Positions 29,032 through 45,732 of a stretch of DNA of 64,000 bases are shown piece after piece. The DNA is taken from the NCBI GenBank assembly GCA_003116975.1, contig BGKB01000094.1, forward strand, positions 62,001 to 126,000, in the 5' to 3' direction. The first letter of the stretch is position 1. The number at the start of each line of letters is the position of its first letter. Source of the stretch: Aurantiochytrium sp. KH105 (Eukaryota > Sar > Bigyra > Thraustochytrida > Thraustochytriidae). The notes below the pieces were generated by a model, which had not been told where the DNA came from, made no database searches, and saw only the letters and a list, made by a program, of their open reading frames with translations. The translations under genes were made by a program, and so were the position numbers.

Positions 29032-32007
29032 TCATGGTGTGCCGTCCACGATGATCGCATGCACTGCTGTCGCCCAGTCAAATGGTCCACGAATAAAAGT
29101 ACGAGGAGGCAACAAGGCTGCCGTGGCAAAGCTCTGAATATGAACGAGCGTGAGGAGAATGTTGGCAAAGTACACAACGAGTAGACCAAATCCCATGGTG
29201 ATGAAAAGGGACCAGCCAAGCTCGTGCTCCGGAATCTCGAGAGCACCGAGCTGAAAACCGAAAAGAAGACGCATCGAAATAAGCAGACTCGACGCGAAGG
29301 AAATAATCTCCGGATTGTATGGCGCGTAGACAACAAAGATGGTTGTCGCAAAGGCCAGAAAGAGAGGCAGAAAAATAAGAAAAAAGTAGTGCAGGATGTC
29401 GCGCAAGGCCAGCGTCCACGATCGGACGAGTATATCGCCTGAACGGAAGAGTTGCATGAAACGCACACCCCGGAGCAAGACGCAGACAATTGTTACAGCC
29501 AAGAGATTCACCTGATGTCGATGAATAGTGCCATGAAATCCCCAGTTTTGGAAAAAAGGCTCGGCGTTGATGTCGAGAAAGTTGACGAGCTCGCCTGCGA
29601 CCTCGGCTCTTGCGGTGCCTCGGGCTCCCAAAAATTCGAGCGCAAAAACGCTGGCGATTGAGAGCAGACTCAAAATGTCCAGCGTCGTATATACAGGATG
29701 GAAAGCACGCCAAGCTCGTGATTGCCAGAATGATTGCAAACAGCACTTGCAACGCGAATTGCTTGCGTTTTGTACAGAAAGAGAAACAGGCACTGCGAGA
29801 CGACGAATCGCTACAATCACAAGAAGGTACGCCACAATGTACAACATCGCACCGACGCCCAGCACGCTCATCCACGCTTTGGCCTTGCCGGCAAATGAGT
29901 TGAGGAACAAGGAGGGCGGAACTGTCTCTGGAATGTACACGGGCTCGATAGCGCCCATTTCTGTCTGTTGCAGGAGGAAGACGTGTGCTGTTGCCGATCC
30001 GGTGTTGATGTTGATCGTGTTAAAAATGATTTCCACCATTCGTGTGCCTTCATTGATCCAGTCTACATTTTGCAGCTGCGAGACCGTCATTGTCCAATTT
30101 GCGGCAGTTATCTCTCCCTGGTCAGAACTAAGAACAGCAACATATCCCGAGCCGTCGTATCGCGAAACAAGATCGAGAGTGTCAACTGGACCGCGCGGTG
30201 ACGCAGACCTCCAATCATTAAGACTCGTAGCGGTACGTGCGTCGACAAAGGTCAATGGATCGCCTGCTTGCGTCGAAATAGCAGTGCCAGTCATTTCGCT
30301 TTCGTCCCGAATCGACATCGAGTATGGCGCGTAGCAGTTCGTGTCAAAAACGAATGTACATTCTTGTGGCTGAACGCGCACTTGACGCATGCGCACATGC
30401 CCCACGACTTGATGATACTGATTCAAGTAGCATTGCTGTTCCTCGTTCTCACAGTTGATGCTATTGTGAACCTGGCTCTCGAGCGTGAAATTAAGCCAGT
30501 CGTATGCACTCTCATAGTCCGAGACCTCATTCCATGCGACAAGGCGCTCATTGGAATCACGCGCGACTTCCGTGCGCGGAGGTGGTTCATAATCTTCAAA
30601 ATATTGGCGAAATTGGCTCGATACCTGCTGGAAGTTTGCTACAAACACGTAGCGCTGGCAGCCGATGCAAATGGCGACCACGAGGAGTACAAGAACGGGA
30701 AAGAATACCAAGCAGTCGATCACCAAATGATATGTGCGCTGCTTGCGTGCCAAAGATCCGCCATGTCGCCCAAGTTGAAGAGCATTCGGAATCGAAATGG
30801 ACGGCTCATCGAGATCTGCATCAATGTCGTCTGTGGCAAAAATATGCTGCACCTCGCGATCAATCCTTGCTTCCTCCTCAACGGTCAAACTGGGTCTGTT
30901 CTCATTGCTGCTCATTTGGAATTCGTCACTCTCGTTCAGCGAGTCACTTTCCTCTAGTGCATCAATATCCCGGAAAAACGAAGAGGGGGCTCCCCTCTCA
31001 ATGTCAAGGTCTGGAATGTTTTCTTCGTTCTCATCTTCGGTGCTTCCAGGCACCGCTTCTTCGCTTTCTCTGATGCCGCTCCTGCCAACAGAGATTTCTG
31101 CCGCAGCATTACTATGCCGTTGAGCGAGAGCGGCCTCGACATGTTGCGAATGAAGCAACGCGCGGACCTCTTCCGCGCGACGGACACGCGCAGCGACGGC
31201 ACTTGGATGGAATCTCTCAACATCCTCGAAGCGAACCTCGTCTGTACCATGTATTGACCGCGGCAAGAGCAGAATACGTGCCTTGGTCCCGGCATATGCT
31301 TGCATTGTTGTTCGTACAATCAGATCATCGACAAAAAGAGCGCCATCGGCGTCACCCAAGGCGAGTTGTCGCGCAACCGTCGGAGCGAGACTCCAATAAC
31401 TGACGACCGAGACGAAGAGCTCACGGAATGTAGAGTCTGACTTGATCTTGAGACTGCACACCTGTCGATTTGCGTAGACCTCCACCTGAAAGTATCCAGC
31501 TTGATCACTCCTGTCGGGTTTCGAGACATTCTCCGAATCTGCCGGGTTCGGCATTGCGGCCTTGACAGCAACTGGGAGCAATTGGCGTCGTAGAAAACCG
31601 GCCATCATCTCCACGGCTTCGCGCTGCACAAAAGCGTTCTTCTCCTCGTCCTTGTCCTGCTGTCGATTTTCTTGAACAAGGCCTCGTGGAGGACGTTGAC
31701 TCGCCGTGGCTACGGGGAGACGTCGTAAAGAAGCAGCCTTGGCACGCTGCTGCTGTTTCAAAGTGTGTAGCTCGTCCTTACGAAACATCAGCTCGGCCCT
31801 GGCGGCCCTGAGCTGCTCTTGCAGACTCTTGAGCGACTCACGCAGGCCCTCGTCCGCCGTGCTGGCTGGTACGTCGGTGGCGAAGATCTCGCCATCTTCA
31901 TCTTCACCAGCGTCACGCCTCCGTTGCGGCCCCAGCGGTAGTGGCTGCTGCTGCTGCGAGGCGCCCGACAGGCCCAGGTCCGCCTCAAACGCCGCGAGAT
32001 CACTCAT
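29032..32007 (-). CDS. Polycystin (PKD2/TRPP)-like cation channel
   Basis: 991 aa. Soluble N-terminus: coiled coil (about 55-85), then a beta-grasp-like region about 170-250 (YFQVEVYANRQVCSLKIKSD). S1 lies at about 417-441. The large extracellular polycystin domain (450-700) carries the hallmark YDGSGYVAVLSSD, then LQNVDWINEGTRMVEIIFNT. S2 is at about 707-735, S3 775-795, S4 830-850, S5 867-893. The pore helix is SLLISMRLLFGFQLGAL (about 900-917) and S6 WSLFITMGFGLLVVYFANIL. The PKD_channel family comprises Ca2+-permeable channels of cilia and other membranes. The C-terminus is short, with no EF-hand or coiled coil after S6. The shifted frame continues without stops to 28887. The first ATG is used. 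Confidence 0.88.
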   Translation of the reverse strand: MSDLAAFEADLGLSGASQQQQPLPLGPQRRRDAGEDEDGEIFATDVPASTADEGLRESLKSLQEQLRAARAELMFRKDELHTLKQQQRAKAASLRRLPVATASQRPPRGLVQENRQQDKDEEKNAFVQREAVEMMAGFLRRQLLPVAVKAAMPNPADSENVSKPDRSDQAGYFQVEVYANRQVCSLKIKSDSTFRELFVSVVSYWSLAPTVARQLALGDADGALFVDDLIVRTTMQAYAGTKARILLLPRSIHGTDEVRFEDVERFHPSAVAARVRRAEEVRALLHSQHVEAALAQRHSNAAAEISVGRSGIRESEEAVPGSTEDENEENIPDLDIERGAPSSFFRDIDALEESDSLNESDEFQMSSNENRPSLTVEEEARIDREVQHIFATDDIDADLDEPSISIPNALQLGRHGGSLARKQRTYHLVIDCLVFFPVLVLLVVAICIGCQRYVFVANFQQVSSQFRQYFEDYEPPPRTEVARDSNERLVAWNEVSDYESAYDWLNFTLESQVHNSINCENEEQQCYLNQYHQVVGHVRMRQVRVQPQECTFVFDTNCYAPYSMSIRDESEMTGTAISTQAGDPLTFVDARTATSLNDWRSASPRGPVDTLDLVSRYDGSGYVAVLSSDQGEITAANWTMTVSQLQNVDWINEGTRMVEIIFNTININTGSATAHVFLLQQTEMGAIEPVYIPETVPPSLFLNSFAGKAKAWMSVLGVGAMLYIVAYLLVIVAIRRLAVPVSLSVQNASNSRCKCCLQSFWQSRAWRAFHPVYTTLDILSLLSIASVFALEFLGARGTARAEVAGELVNFLDINAEPFFQNWGFHGTIHRHQVNLLAVTIVCVLLRGVRFMQLFRSGDILVRSWTLALRDILHYFFLIFLPLFLAFATTIFVVYAPYNPEIISFASSLLISMRLLFGFQLGALEIPEHELGWSLFITMGFGLLVVYFANILLTLVHIQSFATAALLPPRTFIRGPFDWATAVHAIIVDGTP

Positions 32008-32441: not shown

Positions 32442-35400
32442 TCAATTGGCTTCGGCTCCTTCAATGCGCGCAACGAGCTCATTGTAAAAGCCCTGGGCCA
32501 AGTACAAACGGCGCTGAAAGGGCATAGACTCCGCCTCACGAAAAAGATGCTTGGCACTTCGCGGGGCAGTCTTTGGGTACGTGGAGAAATTGGCAAAGCC
32601 AACGCGATTCGGATCACTCTCGTGGACGAGAAGAATGGGCCTCTTTGCCTGCAAGGCTGTCTCGAGCTCCATGCAAACCGACCTGGAGCCGAAAACGGTC
32701 TTTGTAAGAAACAACAGGTAACACTTTGAAGCGCGAATGCTGTTCTGCATTTGCTCCCTCGATAGGTTCCCATCTGCCCGCTGGTCCACCCACACTTTGA
32801 GTCCGCGGCTGATGAGCTTGTCGGCCATGAGGTTGCATGCATCTCCGGCTTCGACCTGCTTATGGCTCAGAAAAACATGATATTGCAGATCCGAGCTCAA
32901 AGGAAAACTAGGAGGACTCTCAGCCGTGCCATCCTGATTTTCCTCCTCGTCCTCCTTGAGAGAACCATCTTCGAAGAACGGCACAAAGTCTGCCAGTTTG
33001 GCATTTTTCGTGCCAATTGCCGGCATGGACTCTACGCCGGACTCGAAAGCATCAACGATGTCGTCGTACGAAACGAGGATGGACGGGTTCTTGGGCGATT
33101 GCAACAAAAGATCCCACGGCAGACCCCGAAACATGGCATCGCGTGCGCCTTGAAACATGCTCACGAGCATCTTGAGCGTGCTTGCTGGCTTGTCCGAATC
33201 TTTTTCCACGCGAATCCAAATCTTGTCGTCTATTTGCTCGAGGGCGAACACAGAAAGGCCGAAACGAATGATGGCCTGCCTTCCTGCAAGCTGGGGTGCA
33301 TGCTTTCGCGATCCAATGTCACCACTGTACTGGGCGCAGAGTGAGAGCAAACGCGCAAAGACGCCATCTGGAAGAAAAAACTCTGAAAAATCGAGCACAC
33401 AAGTCAAGCCAATGTCCATCTCGGCAATCTTTGCATCAAGGTCATCGCTTCTCGCGGTCTTGAGGAGACTGCTCACTAGATAGAGAGGCCCATCATCCCG
33501 CGACTTGCGCAGTAACTTTTCTGAGAATGCCCAATCTGACAGCAGCATTGTATCGCGCATGAACTCCAAGAGATAGGCGACCTCCTCGTCATCCCATAGA
33601 AAACTGAGCAAGGCAAATGTACCGATGCCTTTGTCGCGCAAGAGCTTGAAGTCGTCGTCGAGCTCGAGATCCGAAAGTTTCTCGTCATAGTAAATTTGTT
33701 CCACGTGAATGTCATCCGCGATGACCCGGGCAAGCTTGTTCAAGAGCCACTGTGGGTTCAAGACGACCTTGTCATGCAAGGTATCGGTGGTGCGCAAATG
33801 TACAACCATGCCGAGCTCGTGAAAGTACTTGAGCAGCTCGTCAGTCTGATCGCCGGCGTGATACTTTTCCGCCAGCTCCTGGACCACTTCGAACGGCACG
33901 TGATCGCAATCGAGCATCATGAGGTCATCGATAACCTTGAGCCAGCGCAGCGAGATCTTTTGCGACACTGAGTCGAGCTTTGACGCGGTTCGTTCGACGG
34001 CGTTGCGCAGCTCGACTGCGCGATCCTCCGCAGTGCTCATGTTGTCGAGTGGGAAAAAGCTCACTTTCTGCAACGAGTTTTTGACAAGCTTGACGCCGCG
34101 AAGAGCTTGTAGATCGTTGCGAAGAATCGCTTCCACGGCTTGTAAGCTATCGAGCGCCTGATCGTAGTGAGTTCCGACCAAAATTACGGGGGCCTTGGGC
34201 GCATGGAGCTTGACCGAGTTGAGCCAAAAGCTCAGATAGTCCAGAGCGAGCTCGGTGTCTTGAAGCAGCTCGTTCATGTTGAAGACGAGCATGTAAACCC
34301 CTTCTTGCGTGAGGAAGATGTGATGCAGCGTGTAAAAGACGTCCTGACCGGCATAGTCCCAGATGGTAAAGCTGATCGTCTGGCCGGACTGGGTTTTGCC
34401 GGCCATATTTTCGATCTCTGCGATATCAAAACGTTGGGCTACCTCAGCCTCGGCAACGAGCTCCACCTCCTCCTCAGCAACGAATGTTTGAGCAGAAAGC
34501 CGCCGACGCCCCGGAAGCATGCTCGAAGCGCGTCGACTGATGCGACTGCGCAAAGTTGGACGTTTTCTGGTGCGCATACGCAAGGCTGCCGCACGCATCG
34601 CTTGGCGTTTAAAACCGCTATCAAAGGCTTCCTCACTCCAAAGCTCTGCACTGGTCCTCCTGAGCTCGACGCCCACCGTCGAAATGTGCACCTTTTCCGG
34701 CTTCATGCCCAACAGCGAGCGCACCGTGGATGTCTTGCCGGCGGCGCCCTGGCCAATGATCATGAGCTTGCAGCGGCCCAGCTCGCCTGGGTCTCCGTTC
34801 GCTAGTGCCGCTTTGAGTGCCTCCTGCGCCGCTGCTGCAGCGGCGTCAAGCTCGAGTGCTTCGAGAACATCCGTAATTGGTTGCGCGGCCTCTGTGCCGT
34901 CGAGCGCAAACTTGAGGGCGCCTGTGTTCGCGTTCCAGATACGCACGCTCTTGCCGTACGACCCGCTCACGATTTCTGAACCCAAGAGAGACACCGATCG
35001 CGCATAGTGCGAGAGGCCTTGAAGCACGCGCAGCTGAGCTCCTGTGTGTGCGTTCCAGAGTCTGACCGTCTTGTCGTCGGAACCGCTAACGATGGAATCT
35101 CCCTCGATGGCGACGGACGAGACCGTGGCGGTATGCCCCTCGAGCACGTGGACGAGCGTGAAGGAAGGCACGGCGTAAACTCTGACCTTGCCATCGTTGG
35201 CCCCGCTCACCATGTACATGTTGTCCAATGCAACCGACATGACCCAGCCCGTCGCCTCCCTCAGTTTGTGGCGCTGGTCACCGCTGGCGCGGTCGAAGAC
35301 CCGCACGGTCGCGTCGCTGAGCCCTGCAACGATCCAATCTTCGTTGGCGGCAAGCCCGCGGACCGCCGCTTCGGCGTGAATCGTTTGCGTGCACGCCCCG

Positions 35401-35744
35401 CTGACTGTGTCCCAGACACGAATGGTTTTGTCGTAAGATGCTGACAGCACCTCGTCGCCATCAAGGATGACGCTCCATACGTTGTTGGTGTGACCCTCCA
35501 GCGCGTGCAGGACGGTGGCGGAGCTCAGGTCGATGAGGAAGAGTCCGCCACCTCGCGTCCCCACGGCGGCCAGCATGCCCTGCGCGGCCACCGAGTACGC
35601 CGGCTTTTTGTTGGGCATCTGCATCTCGAGCACCAGGGCGCCCTCCTTGCTCCACGCGCGCAAGGACGCGTCTTGGTCGCTCACGGCCAGGACGAGGTCC
35701 GCGGTCTGCGCGACGCCAAGCACATAGCCCTGAATCAGGCTCAT
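32442..35744 (-). CDS. WD40-ROC-COR-TIR protein (Roco family, NLR-like architecture)
   Basis: 1100 aa from the ATG at 35744 (MSLIQGYVLGVAQTADLVLA). The N-terminal WD40 propeller (about 1-310) has repeats such as LEGHTNNVWSVILDGDEVLS and SASYDKTIRVWD. The ROC GTPase follows: P-loop G331-QGAAGKT-338, G3 D463-YAG-466, G4 THYD 525-528. About 80 residues rich in Arg, then acidic, are inserted between the P-loop and G3. COR covers about 590-900, with LLKYFHELGMVVHLR and VVLNPQWLLNKLARVI. A TIR domain occupies about 953-1090: YHVFLSHKQ at 955, ASKCYLLFLTKTVFGS, then C1024-M-E1026-L-E. Glu1026 is in the position of the catalytic Glu of NAD-cleaving TIRs. The order sensor propeller - GTPase switch - TIR effector suggests a signalling or immune-type receptor. 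No membrane segment. Frames upstream of 35744 lack an ATG. Confidence 0.92.
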   Translation of the reverse strand: MSLIQGYVLGVAQTADLVLAVSDQDASLRAWSKEGALVLEMQMPNKKPAYSVAAQGMLAAVGTRGGGLFLIDLSSATVLHALEGHTNNVWSVILDGDEVLSASYDKTIRVWDTVSGACTQTIHAEAAVRGLAANEDWIVAGLSDATVRVFDRASGDQRHKLREATGWVMSVALDNMYMVSGANDGKVRVYAVPSFTLVHVLEGHTATVSSVAIEGDSIVSGSDDKTVRLWNAHTGAQLRVLQGLSHYARSVSLLGSEIVSGSYGKSVRIWNANTGALKFALDGTEAAQPITDVLEALELDAAAAAAQEALKAALANGDPGELGRCKLMIIGQGAAGKTSTVRSLLGMKPEKVHISTVGVELRRTSAELWSEEAFDSGFKRQAMRAAALRMRTRKRPTLRSRISRRASSMLPGRRRLSAQTFVAEEEVELVAEAEVAQRFDIAEIENMAGKTQSGQTISFTIWDYAGQDVFYTLHHIFLTQEGVYMLVFNMNELLQDTELALDYLSFWLNSVKLHAPKAPVILVGTHYDQALDSLQAVEAILRNDLQALRGVKLVKNSLQKVSFFPLDNMSTAEDRAVELRNAVERTASKLDSVSQKISLRWLKVIDDLMMLDCDHVPFEVVQELAEKYHAGDQTDELLKYFHELGMVVHLRTTDTLHDKVVLNPQWLLNKLARVIADDIHVEQIYYDEKLSDLELDDDFKLLRDKGIGTFALLSFLWDDEEVAYLLEFMRDTMLLSDWAFSEKLLRKSRDDGPLYLVSSLLKTARSDDLDAKIAEMDIGLTCVLDFSEFFLPDGVFARLLSLCAQYSGDIGSRKHAPQLAGRQAIIRFGLSVFALEQIDDKIWIRVEKDSDKPASTLKMLVSMFQGARDAMFRGLPWDLLLQSPKNPSILVSYDDIVDAFESGVESMPAIGTKNAKLADFVPFFEDGSLKEDEEENQDGTAESPPSFPLSSDLQYHVFLSHKQVEAGDACNLMADKLISRGLKVWVDQRADGNLSREQMQNSIRASKCYLLFLTKTVFGSRSVCMELETALQAKRPILLVHESDPNRVGFANFSTYPKTAPRSAKHLFREAESMPFQRRLYLAQGFYNELVARIEGAEAN

Positions 35745-42586: not shown

Positions 42587-44986
42587 CTATAAACGCCGTC
42601 TTAATTCCGCGGCGGCAGCAAAGCGCGCACGCCGAGCCTCAATGGTCGACTCGTCTCCCCTAGACGACTCGTCTGGGCGAGCATCGTCCACAAGGGTATC
42701 GGCCGCACAATCCTTTGACGCTGACGAACCATCGTCGCTAACATCTGCATCCTCTGCAGTGTTTTCGGGGGTTACAGGCTCGTCGACTTGTACAGTGCTA
42801 TTATTTTGAGCGTCTGGCTCGGCTTCAGCTTCGACTTCGTTGTGTCCGTAATCCACAGTTTCAGAGACAGCGGAAGATGCATCCTCGGCACAGGACTCCA
42901 AAAGATCTTTGATATCCGCACGAGGAATCACATCATGAAGACAAAAGTAGACGCGACAGGTTGGACATTGTCCCTGCCACGAAGGATCAACTTCGTCGTC
43001 ACGCATAACAAGCTCCATGCGCGTCCGATTCCTCGCAAACCACCATTTGATGAGACACGTTTCACACCACGCAGGCTCGCACGGGCAGTCGGCGCGTTCC
43101 TCGCAAGTATCGCACGATTTGCGAATGAGGACATTTGGCGCGTTGCCGCAAGCACCCAAACACTCTTGCGCGAGATTAAACTCATCGCGACGAAAGCTGC
43201 GCCCTTGAAGAGCGCTCTCGCAGAGCATCTCATTGAATCGGGTATGAAAGTTTGCCTCTCTACGACTCACAACAATCTCTTCCCGTTTGCGCACGCTCTC
43301 CACAAAGGTAGAACGCAAGGTTTCAAACTGACCTCGCGGAAGTGAGACATCGAAAGCATACATTGCTCGTGAGCGTTCAGCACCCACGCCCAAAATCGAG
43401 CTCCTGCTCTCAATGCGCATCGTGACAATCTCCACGAGCTCGCCCTTGATCCAGCGCCCCGACACCTGCAAGTCGGCCACTCGGGCGTCTTCAATGGCCA
43501 CAACGTCGAGTCCAAAGTAGGATGTACAAATGAGCCAGTTCGGTGTCACGACTACGATGCGCGCGTTCCATGCGAGCACTAGCGTTGAAGGGTCGAGAAT
43601 CTCACGGTCCATCTCGGCAATGATGCCATCATGCAACGCTTCTGGGCCATGCGCGGCGGCCAGGCGCAGAGCGACAGGATCGAATCCACGAAAGAGGAGT
43701 GCCCCCCTGTACAGCAAGTACGCTGCAGTAGCGCTCAAAGCAGCCGCGCACAAGTAGACGGATGCAGGCGAAAAGGTTTGATCTACGTAGAATGCGGGTT
43801 TTCTGTCCTTTTGATCCGAAGTCCACAGCCACATCGTTGAACGTTGACGAGCTCCCTTTCCAGCGCTAGCCAACGCAGCCGACGAGAGCTCCTTTGTAGT
43901 CTTTTCCACGCGACGTACGATGCCACACGGTGACTTGAGCTCGCTGCTGAATCCCGGGAAGGCGCTGTCCTGGGTCCCCGGCACCTTGACCAGCACCTGT
44001 GTTGGACCTCGAGGATCATCGGCAAGGTCGACGCTTTGCGCGATAAAATGCGCACGGTGCTCGCGGCCTTTGATCGGACCCGTGCTCCAAGTCGGAGACG
44101 CCACCATGGCGGGAAGCAAAATATATGTCTTGGCGCTTGGTCGATCGCGCATGCTTACATCCAATGGTGCCGGACCCCTCACCACATCCCACAGAAAGGG
44201 TCCCATAATTGATAACACCAATAATGCATAGAGAAGGCCAAAAATATAGACGCCGGAAAGTCGTCTGCGCACGAGGTCTCGATGCGCTCGAACGAGCCCT
44301 AGAGCACGCGCATTCTCGGCCGCTGTTCTTGGCGGCTCGACGCGAACCTTGTGCAACTCGATGACGCCCTGGAGACACCTAATCCAGCCATTGATGGAAA
44401 GTTGCGCAAAGATTCCGCCGATAGGAGCCCCTCCGAGGTCAAGGGCAAAGTACTGTCCACCAGAGCCTCCATAGGCTGTCGACATGCGACCTCGATTTGT
44501 GACGAATTGGATCTGGTCTAGGTACGCTCCTTGCTGGCCCCGAACTTCGACGATGTATTCGTCATCTTCGAGCTCAAAAGGAGGGAATTCCGTGCCGCCT
44601 GTTCCGCCAAAGGTGACGCCCTCTGGCACATCCGAATATACAAAAGTGACACCATCAACGAGAGCTCCAGCACGCACAATCACGCTTGTTACCCTGCGCT
44701 GGCTAGCGCGTTGCGCGTTATCTTCAACCTCCTCTTCGCCGCGCGTGGCACCCTCGATCTGCCCATCGCGCTCGCTATTCTGCCGTGCGCCCGCTAAAGG
44801 CACATGCAAAGGCGGCACCGAGCGCGAGGACCAGCGGTGTTGCAGCGCAGCGATGTAGCCTGAGACGTAGAACGTGACCAGACTCACGCCCACAAAGAGC
44901 ATTGTGGCCTGCTGCACGAGGTCGAGACGGTCGTCCAGCGTCAACACCTCGTCGAGATCTTGACGCCCCATCATCCCCTCGGGCAT
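42587..44986 (-). CDS. TMEM129-like RING E3 ligase with inserted jacalin-like lectin domain
   Basis: 799 aa from the ATG at 44986 (MPEGMMGRQDLDEVLTLDDR). TM1 lies about 28-50 (MLFVGVSLVTFYVSGYIAAL). Residues 95-210 form a jacalin-like beta-prism: VTFVYSDVPEGVTFGGTGGT, YLDQIQFVTNRGRMSTAYGG, SGGQYFALDLGGAPIGGIFA. TM2 is at about 241-265 and TM3 about 409-432. Residues 605-690 carry the atypical Cys-only RING of TMEM129: CLGACGNAP, KSCDTCEERADCPCEPAWCE, TCLIKWWFA, CPTCRVYFC. TMEM129 is an ER ubiquitin ligase used in ERAD. The acidic C-tail is variable. The lectin insertion between TM1 and TM2 would face the ER lumen or cytosol depending on topology, and could read glycans on substrates. Confidence 0.85.
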   Translation of the reverse strand: MPEGMMGRQDLDEVLTLDDRLDLVQQATMLFVGVSLVTFYVSGYIAALQHRWSSRSVPPLHVPLAGARQNSERDGQIEGATRGEEEVEDNAQRASQRRVTSVIVRAGALVDGVTFVYSDVPEGVTFGGTGGTEFPPFELEDDEYIVEVRGQQGAYLDQIQFVTNRGRMSTAYGGSGGQYFALDLGGAPIGGIFAQLSINGWIRCLQGVIELHKVRVEPPRTAAENARALGLVRAHRDLVRRRLSGVYIFGLLYALLVLSIMGPFLWDVVRGPAPLDVSMRDRPSAKTYILLPAMVASPTWSTGPIKGREHRAHFIAQSVDLADDPRGPTQVLVKVPGTQDSAFPGFSSELKSPCGIVRRVEKTTKELSSAALASAGKGARQRSTMWLWTSDQKDRKPAFYVDQTFSPASVYLCAAALSATAAYLLYRGALLFRGFDPVALRLAAAHGPEALHDGIIAEMDREILDPSTLVLAWNARIVVVTPNWLICTSYFGLDVVAIEDARVADLQVSGRWIKGELVEIVTMRIESRSSILGVGAERSRAMYAFDVSLPRGQFETLRSTFVESVRKREEIVVSRREANFHTRFNEMLCESALQGRSFRRDEFNLAQECLGACGNAPNVLIRKSCDTCEERADCPCEPAWCETCLIKWWFARNRTRMELVMRDDEVDPSWQGQCPTCRVYFCLHDVIPRADIKDLLESCAEDASSAVSETVDYGHNEVEAEAEPDAQNNSTVQVDEPVTPENTAEDADVSDDGSSASKDCAADTLVDDARPDESSRGDESTIEARRARFAAAAELRRRL

Positions 44987-45732
44987 CACGATACCGTCCT
45001 CTCCCCGTCCTCGACGTGATGTTCCGCTCGTGACAATCAATCGATTCTGGCTGCTCCAGAGAGCTTCTGCAGCCGCAAATCCCCTCTCTCGCGCCTGGCA
45101 CCGGCGGCGTGAGACAGAGCCCGCGTGTGTCACAACACTGCTTTCCTCTTCGCAGTCTCGTACGCGGCCTCCTCGAGCGTCTCCTGCAGGACCCGAGACC
45201 TTCCTCCTTCGTCTGCGCTGCAGCGAGACGCGCGGCCGGGCGCGCAAAATGAGGAGCGCGCGCGAAGGCTCGGCGGAGATTGGTGGCCCTCCGGAGCGGC
45301 CGCGTGCGTCCGCGCGCACGCGGGCGTCGCGGCGGCGTCAGGGTCGCGAGGATCGGGCTCTGCTTTGCTGCTTCCTCGCCATGGCCGCGGAAAAGGAGGG
45401 GAATCATCGCGCCGCGCAAGCGGGCTATGCGCGCCGCGCAAGTGGGCTATGCGCGCCGCGCAAGTGCGCAATGGCGCCTTTAGCCACTTGCGCCGCGGCG
45501 GTGGGACCCGCGCGCGGCAAGTGGGTTATGCGCCCCGCGCAAGTGAAGAATCCGCAGAGAGTTGAGTCTGCGTCGCGGCGGGCGGACGAGAAGCGAAAGA
45601 GGGGCGCGAGAAATGGGGTATTGGGAGACGGCAAGTAGGAAAATGGGCGCCGGAAGTGAAGAATGGCGCGGCAAAGTGGAAATTGGGCGCGGCAACGATG
45701 AAAAGAAGAGCAAAAAACGAATCCCGAGCGCG
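44987..45732. promoter_or_regulatory. Bidirectional promoter region (TMEM129-like / cyclophilin)
   Basis: A 746-bp head-to-head spacer. Its cyclophilin-proximal half is filled by the repeat cluster listed at 45411-45705. The upstream extension of the minus-strand frame has no ATG and is not conserved-looking. Confidence 0.55.
45411..45705. repeat. Cluster of GCAAGTGGG(C/T)TATG-type elements
   Basis: About ten related elements. The first three are spaced 22 bp apart (about 45418, 45440, 45462). An inverted copy, CCACTTGCGCCGCG, is at about 45482. Further copies lie at about 45517, 45538, 45632, 45654, 45671 and 45691, increasingly diverged. Consensus GCGCAAGTGGGNNATG. It probably forms a transcription-factor site array next to the cyclophilin gene. 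Confidence 0.75.

Follow-up and report, generated by a model that had tools for sequence, protein, structure and literature searches.

In the fungus Podospora anserina, the HNWD/NWD allorecognition genes (HET-E, HET-D, and HET-R) form a dispersed family whose top-face WD40 codons (7, 9, 25, and 27 of the repeat) undergo diversifying selection and which shows concerted evolution, according to the available portions of the reports (PMC1805685, PMC2873952). In brown algae, an expansion of stramenopile ROCO genes has been proposed as a source of immune receptors whose repeat sensor is diversified; as described in the accessible part of that report, these LRR-ROC-COR candidates use LRR sensors and exon shuffling and lack TIR, and ROCO genes number 9 to 47 in brown algae and four or fewer in unicellular SAR relatives (PMC11378527). 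In the NACHT sensors of multicellular bacteria, as far as the accessible text goes, diversity-generating retroelements (DGRs) randomize sensor residues while the scaffold, joined to a conflict-system switch, stays constant (PMC10907252). Here we describe a gene of the thraustochytrid Aurantiochytrium sp. KH105 in which a WD40 propeller, a ROC GTPase, a COR domain, and a TIR domain are encoded together. The gene lies in a 64,000-nucleotide stretch of DNA (here called the window; C94:62001-126000, contig BGKB01000094.1, within a 76-Mb assembly), and its product probably belongs to a large family of intracellular recognition receptors that is diversifying. The TIR fold and the position of the catalytic Glu are shared with SARM1/tir-1 and plant TIR-NLRs; the scaffolds of those proteins are ARM-SAM or NB-ARC, whereas a ROC-COR scaffold and a propeller sensor are present here.

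The gene is an uninterrupted, intron-free minus-strand frame of 1100 codons (ATG at 35744, stop at 32442-32444). Four Pfam matches exceeded their curated cut-offs, in agreement with the domain content given in the initial annotation: WD40 in the N-terminal part (91.3 bits; cut-off, 27), Roc PF08477 (74.8 bits; cut-off, 27; best stretch, residues 433 to 528), COR-A PF16095 (44.7 bits; cut-off, 35.3; residues 600 to 680), and TIR_2 PF13676 (41.1 bits; cut-off, 28; residues 957 to 1042). With four domain types above threshold and the TIR domain backed by a structural model and fold search, chance or artefactual domain calls were ruled out. We read the propeller as seven bladed, on the basis of its repeats and a 40-residue period over 285 residues. 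A deposited protein of the thraustochytrid stramenopile Hondaea fermentalgiana (P0002) differs from the window protein at 2 positions in 1100; since it was deposited as one protein, location of TIR and ROC-COR on two separate mRNAs, which would have contradicted the initial annotation, is disfavored. P0002 is labeled "WD repeat-containing protein pop2," and relatives are named Rab, F-box/WD repeat protein, or LRRK, so that existing names hide the WD40-ROC-COR-TIR family.

The main point, which the initial annotation misses, is that the gene belongs to a large and diversified family. A protein search of the genome (42 of 601 candidates scored) gave at least 42 near-full-length matches, one of them the gene itself; the other 41 copies were 63 to 98% identical to it, and 41 of the 42 were stop-free within the matched stretch. 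COR-A had 124 genome matches, 116 of them above cut-off, compared with the four or fewer ROCO genes given for unicellular SAR relatives in the available text of PMC11378527, the count here coming from what is apparently a two-haplotype assembly. TIR_2 had at least 150 matches above cut-off (150 of 258 candidates scored). When the 116 COR-A matches were compared with these 150, at least 86 pairs on 69 contigs had TIR_2 on the same strand at most 1.8 kb downstream, and a frame of at least 1139 aa (WD40-class size) was present in 46 of the 86. The other 30 COR-A matches had no scored TIR nearby, which does not establish absence. Of the 150 scored TIR_2 matches, 64 lacked a nearby above-cut-off COR-A; TIR genes of other kinds thus seem numerous in the organism. 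The DNA flanking the window gene recurred at full length once, at 95% identity on contig C82; the assembly therefore apparently contains both haplotypes, and the family counts cover what appear to be two haplotypes and set a lower bound on family size. The copies are dispersed, mostly with unlike downstream flanks. Thirty copies (L009 to L038) of the at least 42 were aligned for the analyses that follow.

Diversity among the aligned copies followed a 40-residue period across codons 1 to 285, with an autocorrelation of 0.469 at lag 40, whereas 1000 shuffles never exceeded 0.289 and three stretches elsewhere in the gene stayed at or below 0.219. The hypervariable residues fall three to a blade (7, 9, 23; 48, 50, 64; 88, 90, 104; 127, 129, 143; 167, 169, 183; 207, 209, 223; and 247, 249, 263). 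The top-face contact positions of a WD40 blade are likewise three, termed R1-2, R1, and D-1 in the portion of the source available (PMC3419727), and 20 of the 21 hypervariable positions coincided with this pattern, blade 1 being off by one residue. The mean number of nonsynonymous differences per nonsynonymous site (pN) was 0.597 at the 21 published-pattern positions and 0.084 at other propeller sites; none of 100,000 random 21-site sets attained the former value. All 21 contact positions ranked among the 32 most variable of 285 propeller sites, and the contrast between contacts and scaffold was present in each blade. Contact residues were enriched in Tyr (10.1%), Trp (9.6%), and Asn (9.4%) relative to the whole propeller (1.6, 2.2, and 3.2%, respectively). 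L010 was omitted from these family-wide pN, period, and composition figures, and likewise from the domain pN/pS ratios and the profile of synonymous divergence along the gene given below. The variation thus concentrates at predicted ligand-contact residues of the propeller.

The contrast was also examined in a pool of 20 loci with a median third-position distance below 0.1, a filter that excludes L009, L010, L015, L016, L023, L024, L030, and L034, and from which L020 and L038 were then dropped. Nucleotide difference in the pool was 54% at the 21 contact codons and 4% in the propeller scaffold; in the 18 copies left when L013 and L027 were also omitted, the values were 0.537 and 0.038 (bootstrap ratio, 10.9 to 20.1). 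Contact codons had a pN of 0.605 and a synonymous counterpart (pS) of 0.278, the latter probably inflated by multistep paths, compared with 0.033 and 0.050 in the scaffold. The pN and pS values were 0.148 and 0.405 in ROC (residues 361 to 590), 0.178 and 0.602 in COR, and 0.163 and 0.649 in TIR. The 21-residue combinations (barcodes) were nearly all different, with 27 distinct among 30 loci and repeats only in the allele pairs L009/L010, L018/L020, and L023/L024; the 427 nonallelic pairs had a mean of 3.0 of the 21 contact residues in common and never more than 8.

Diversifying selection at top-face propeller codons, as in HNWD genes, was therefore detected here by counting methods, with the top face assigned by sequence pattern. 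The fungal proteins carry NACHT, and several also have a HET effector, whereas a ROC-COR switch and a C-terminal TIR are found here. Nor are the near-identical, shuffled, variable-number repeats of HNWD proteins present: blades are 5 to 63% identical within a protein (mean, 22 to 28% in the 30 copies), and propeller length varies little (283 to 295 residues). The pattern is that expected of a diversifying repertoire for nonself recognition; it resembles the strategy of the fungal HNWD genes but builds on ROCO-TIR and on seven blades that are unlike one another.

How contact diversity could arise on so uniform a scaffold, so far explained only in part, was considered next. Synonymous divergence was low from codon 1 to about codon 360 and rose beyond it, with pool values of 0.05 in the propeller scaffold and 0.60 to 0.65 in COR and TIR. 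About 450 upstream bases were similar in most copies, but L009/L010 differed from the rest; long downstream similarity was largely restricted to probable allelic pairs. The G+C content at third codon positions (GC3) fell in the pool from 0.90 in the propeller to 0.64 in TIR (0.80 and 0.64 in the window gene), a gradient that biased gene conversion would give. L019 and L038 differ over a tract of 62 to 81% identity at about codons 501 to 800, within sequence that is mostly 91 to 99% identical. Low 5' synonymous divergence, the GC3 fall, and this tract together support gene conversion that acts mainly on the 5' part. Synonymous diversity was 0.072 one codon from a contact and 0.016 at eight codons or more, with a bump of 0.055 at seven; because it rises beside the contacts, we favor a history in which old contact variants were kept by selection while short exchanges wiped the scaffold. 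Shuffling of blade blocks was rejected as the main source, with 18 identical triplets compared with 6.6 in permutations (which reached 22) and near-zero R1-2/R1 linkage; some block exchange between copies is likely.

We prefer selection plus gene conversion as the origin of the diversity and keep as an alternative a dedicated process that rewrites contact codons, like bacterial DGRs. Such a process would be compatible with any of the functional readings discussed below, and several results point toward it. L021 and L035, on different contigs, share every third base of the propeller scaffold codons, a few of which (28, 40, 229, and 234) are unlike at their first or second base; yet 18 of the 21 contacts differ, several codons at two or three bases, a contrast for which conversion by itself does not account. 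Mean contact differences were nearly independent of scaffold divergence, at 17.2 of 21 for third-position distances below 0.03 and 18.6 for distances of 0.3 to 0.5. Contacts 6 bases apart were close to linkage equilibrium, with 19.4 distinct pairs per blade against 20.1 after permutation (standard deviation [SD], 0.47), whereas variable sites within three codons elsewhere in the gene were strongly linked (9.96 versus 12.74; SD, 0.07). Several contact codons had an almost invariant third base; at residue 48, for instance, it was G in 24 of 25, and at residue 88 it was T in 21 of 24. On the other side, the uneven decay of synonymous diversity away from contacts is expected for old linked variants under recombination, and codons were shared between the first contacts of a blade and its third a little more often than by chance (ratio, 1.30; 95th percentile of permutations, 1.26, with a maximum of 1.45), which indicates that short blocks move together. 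L010, L016, L020, L024, and L038 were omitted from the linkage and codon-sharing tests. The 121 consensus-A scaffold positions were about twice as variable as others (0.07 versus 0.02 to 0.03) and far below contacts, which does not resemble adenine-directed rewriting; bacterial-type adenine mutagenesis is weakened by this but not rejected, and selection could hide changes. The bacterial sensors are retroelement driven, in the text available (PMC10907252), and adenine-directed change was not evident here. Finally, two Hondaea proteins (P0003 and P0014), though separately deposited, have the contacts of L023/L024 and L030. We judge targeted rewriting distinctly improbable. A protist copy-and-diversify system, with the propeller of a locus rewritten from a shared scaffold and its 21 contact codons replaced one by one by an aimed process, is likewise a long shot; if real, it would give a unicellular eukaryote an anticipatory germline receptor repertoire without gene-segment recombination or repeat shuffling and with a fixed ROC-COR-TIR output.

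The output half of the protein is constrained. In the aligned copies, pN/pS was 0.39 in ROC, 0.30 in COR, and 0.26 in TIR. The intact P-loop and DxxG of the initial annotation held across the family: K337, T338, DYAGQ (463 to 467, including D463), and T525/H526/D528 were identical in all 30 copies, as were W985, D987, and E1026, and the P-loop glycines G336 and G333 were kept in 29 and 28 copies, respectively. LRRK2 and bacterial Roco chains were among the solved-structure matches of ROC, and a family profile matched the bacterial Roco chains 3dpu, 6hlu, and 8r4b across ROC-COR. With tandem ROC and COR and intact GTP-binding motifs, the protein is a Roco GTPase. Between residues 319 and 939, only Roc, COR-A, and Ras were found in Pfam at E ≤ 0.001, and membership in the STAND/NLR class was ruled out, NB-ARC and NACHT being absent from that ROC-COR region at that threshold, in line with the independence from NB-ARC/NACHT NLRs that the initial annotation had proposed. 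Since ROC is present and no STAND NTPase was found there, the protein may work like an NLR without being one.

The Glu that the initial annotation placed at the NAD (nicotinamide adenine dinucleotide) cleavage position was present as described. E1026 aligns with the Glu of the Caenorhabditis elegans tir-1 HKEL motif, which we take to be the catalytic residue in SARM1/tir-1, and lies inside helix 1021-1032 of the TIR model. Among 13 aligned ROC-COR-TIR proteins, one of which (P0007) is a member of this family, Glu occupied this position in 12; the exception, P0032, carries Gln. In the structural comparison that had been proposed for the C-terminal region, SARM1 chains were the top matches of the model in both Foldseek and VIA, so the domain has the fold of TIR-domain NAD hydrolases and is nearest to NAD-cleaving members. 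PADLOC gave only weak TIR-type matches.

Alleles were compared next. Seven probable allelic pairs have downstream flanks 91 to 95% alike over 1.38 to 1.51 kb, and L032/L036 form an eighth, weaker pair (88% upstream; 84.5% downstream over 413 bases). Upstream similarity is low in L018/L020 (78% over 681 bases), and any of the eight may instead be a recent segmental duplication. Contact differences out of 21 were 0 in L009/L010, L018/L020, and L023/L024; 1 in L019/L038; 4 in L015/L016; 16 in L032/L036; 17 in L026/L027; and 19 in L012/L013. L012 and L013 differ at 40 of their 63 contact-codon bases, and the remaining 248 propeller codons contribute 20 further base differences. Among the three pairs with many contact differences, L012/L013 includes a copy with a stop (L013) and L026/L027 a copy whose 5' end is shifted (L027), but both copies of L032/L036 read as intact.

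A working mechanism can be proposed. The propeller would display a 21-residue contact surface that differs between copies, as judged from the published WD40 pattern. Ligand binding at this face would change the GTP or oligomeric state of ROC-COR, by analogy with Roco proteins; TIR domains would be gathered as a result and, given their fold and conserved Glu, would cleave NAD, and the cell would be killed or a signal would be made. Selection would repeatedly alter the contact codons, while conversion among dispersed copies would keep the 5' part of the gene, from the promoter side to the P-loop, uniform. Ligands would most likely come from parasites or viruses, or would be markers by which other strains are told apart as self or nonself. 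The sensor, switch, and effector arrangement of the initial annotation gains from the contact-site variation and from the nearness of the TIR model to NAD-cleaving domains; GTP-dependent dimerization, NAD cleavage, and cell death stay at the level of proposal.

Several points weigh against this interpretation. In blade 1 the published pattern predicts residue 24 and the variable residue is 23, and the contact positions were assigned from that pattern after the diversity had been seen. The divergence figures are simple counts rather than estimates from a likelihood model, and recombination complicates them. By our reading, 3 of the 30 copies look damaged (the L013 stop and the shifted 5' ends of L027 and L034). 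The two alleles of the window gene have identical contact residues, and its propeller lies outside the homogenized pool, with a median third-position scaffold distance of 0.37 (pool, below 0.1); on both counts, this copy may have a fixed ligand. Since thraustochytrids are unicellular, suicide would need a kin-level benefit, and a signaling role without death is equally open. Noncatalytic TIRs (TLR, MyD88) also match the fold of the TIR model.

That last match bears on an ordinary signaling role, in which Roco-TIR would act as a scaffold or adaptor, the propellers would bind endogenous partners, and diversity would reflect subfunctionalization. Roco proteins elsewhere serve chemotaxis, cell shape, and stress signaling, the TIR domains of TLRs and MyD88 are noncatalytic adaptors, and the unchanged contacts between the alleles of the window gene fit such a role. 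The invariance of E1026 and the NAD hydrolases at the top of the fold matches argue otherwise, and near-total contact replacement on almost identical scaffolds would be unexpected for endogenous partners; we consider this role unlikely. A narrower form of the receptor interpretation is allorecognition, with the repertoire testing conspecific cell identity and TIR blocking fusion or killing mixed cells. We know of no vegetative fusion in thraustochytrids, dozens of loci exceed the needs of fusion control, and five of the eight probable allelic pairs are unlike at only 0 to 4 of 21 contacts. The other three pairs, unlike at 16 to 19, are in keeping with it, as is diversification of the same kind of contact codons in the Podospora WD40 incompatibility genes, within the accessible part of PMC1805685 and PMC2873952. 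On balance, allorecognition seems rather unlikely, with some standing. Very improbable is an artefact, whether copies homogenized by assembly or polishing, pseudogenes, or a mobile element. Copies with near-identical scaffolds pose a difficulty for assembly, the propeller is missing from several deposited Hondaea models, and 3 of the 30 copies look damaged. However, six deposited Hondaea propeller proteins differ mutually at 15 to 21 of 21 contacts (alignment gaps counted as differences), and P0003 and P0014 carry exact barcodes of this genome, an agreement between separate deposits that does not by itself prove the samples independent. The contact-scaffold contrast persisted after removal of L013 and L027, pN was well below pS in ROC, COR, and TIR, and dispersed copies with mostly different downstream flanks do not fit this explanation. 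A diversifying family of recognition receptors thus remains the reading that we adopt.

The distribution of the architecture was examined in database searches that covered the candidates with the greatest word overlap with the query. In a set of 50 relatives of residues 310 to 1100 (7999 candidates scored), WD40, ROC, COR, and TIR were combined only in Hondaea proteins. A search for the same domain order in other Roco proteins, suggested with the initial annotation, thus listed the full order for Hondaea only, whereas ROC-COR-TIR without WD40 was wider: among the matches listed, it occurs in Mucochytrium quahogii P0164 and in many metagenomic proteins, some with TPR or SAM. With a wider profile (120 of 162 matches listed), one possible non-Hondaea exception was the metagenomic P0233 (1781 aa), which has Roc, COR-A, and a C-terminal SAM above cut-off and an N-terminal propeller at 40 bits (cut-off, 80); its TIR_2 appears in a precomputed list only and was not recovered by a scan at E ≤ 1e-5. 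In P0244, short WD40 and Roc matches that barely pass the cut-off accompany COR-A, and TIR is absent. Hondaea P0044 has LRR, ROC, COR, and TIR in the precomputed list. A close bacterial relative was looked for by a contig scan and rejected, as 41 stretches yielded one weak confirmed match (L039, in a Xenococcus metagenome-assembled genome; 34%, query residues 173 to 282), which the sole frame of at least 350 aa there misses.

The novelty of joining ROCO to TIR had been overstated in the initial annotation, since the combination occurs in these database sequences and, in the text available, as TPR-ROCO-TIR in the red alga Chondrus (PMC11378527) and as ROCO-TIR proteins in Aplysia (PMC9334734). 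ROC-COR is joined to TIR in these proteins as it is here, but the partners differ (TPR in Chondrus; TLR-like and MyD88-like proteins in Aplysia), and no hypervariable propeller repertoire is reported in those portions (PMC11378527, PMC9334734). In the searches made of an open-access literature collection, no report of thraustochytrid TIR domains was found, and thraustochytrid plus WD40 returned, by title, only transcriptome and diatom lipid-droplet papers. Judged against that literature, a hypervariable WD40 repertoire on ROC-COR-TIR appears to be new.

Features of the WD40-ROC-COR-TIR gene, in window positions.
Feature	Position	Strand	Residues and basis
Whole gene, single-exon WD40-ROC-COR-TIR	32442..35744	minus	1100 aa plus stop; P0002 99.8% identical over 1100 aa
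WD40 propeller, presumed sensor	34890..35744	minus	Residues 1-285; Pfam WD40 and 40-residue diversity period
Span of 21 hypervariable codons	34956..35726	minus	Family diversity and published R1-2, R1, D-1 contact positions
ROC GTPase	33975..34790	minus	Residues 319-590; Pfam Roc and solved-structure matches
P-loop GQGAAGKT	34731..34754	minus	Residues 331-338; conserved in family copies
Switch II motif DYAGQ	34344..34358	minus	Residues 463-467; 30/30 copies
COR domain	32940..33974	minus	Residues 591-935; Pfam part, 600-680
TIR domain	32445..32885	minus	Residues 954-1100
E1026, Glu at NADase catalytic position	32667..32669	minus	30/30 copies; tir-1 HKEL alignment; helix 1021-1032 of model

Some related proteins and neighboring genes were also recorded. 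Hondaea P0079, labeled G-protein beta-like, combines an above-cut-off NACHT-type NPHP3_N with many similar WD40 repeats and is, as predicted from its domains, an NLR-like gene in the same organism. P0052, P0053, and P0158 have the same propeller type without ROC-COR-TIR; by eye, P0052 has two tandem propellers, P0053 two propellers and a C-terminal hydrophobic segment, and P0158 a coiled-coil-like stretch and a propeller. Odd architectures or gene-model fusions are represented by Hondaea P0019 (1621 aa; two consecutive ROC-COR-TIR units), P0042 (608 aa; EF-hands and TIR), and P0005 (1753 aa; WD40-ROC-COR-TIR and a kinase). P0027 is a ROC-COR-TIR protein with an extra TIR-like N-terminal stretch by eye, Pfam TIR being at the C terminus only. 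In the window, a polycystin-like channel frame lies on the downstream side of the gene in the same orientation (29032-32007, minus), and a frame with a C-terminal ADP-ribosyltransferase domain, presumably NAD using, lies about 30 kb away (353-2398, plus). A jacalin-like lectin domain and a Tmpp129 (PF10272) region share a further frame (42587-45319, minus), which may represent two genes.

Large intracellular receptor repertoires are known in plants, fungi, and animals, and ROCO candidates are known in brown algae; the family described here would place such a repertoire in a unicellular stramenopile. Its chassis is a GTPase (ROC-COR) rather than a STAND ATPase, and its TIR output is apparently NAD cleaving. 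The findings raise the questions of whether ROC-COR can gate a TIR NADase, what single cells would gain from a suicide receptor, and how contacts diverge on a uniform scaffold. Because the seven blades are unlike, binding codes could be read from the 21-residue string. The family is an apparent second, independent example of the fungal solution, in which the top-face residues of a WD40 propeller are varied.

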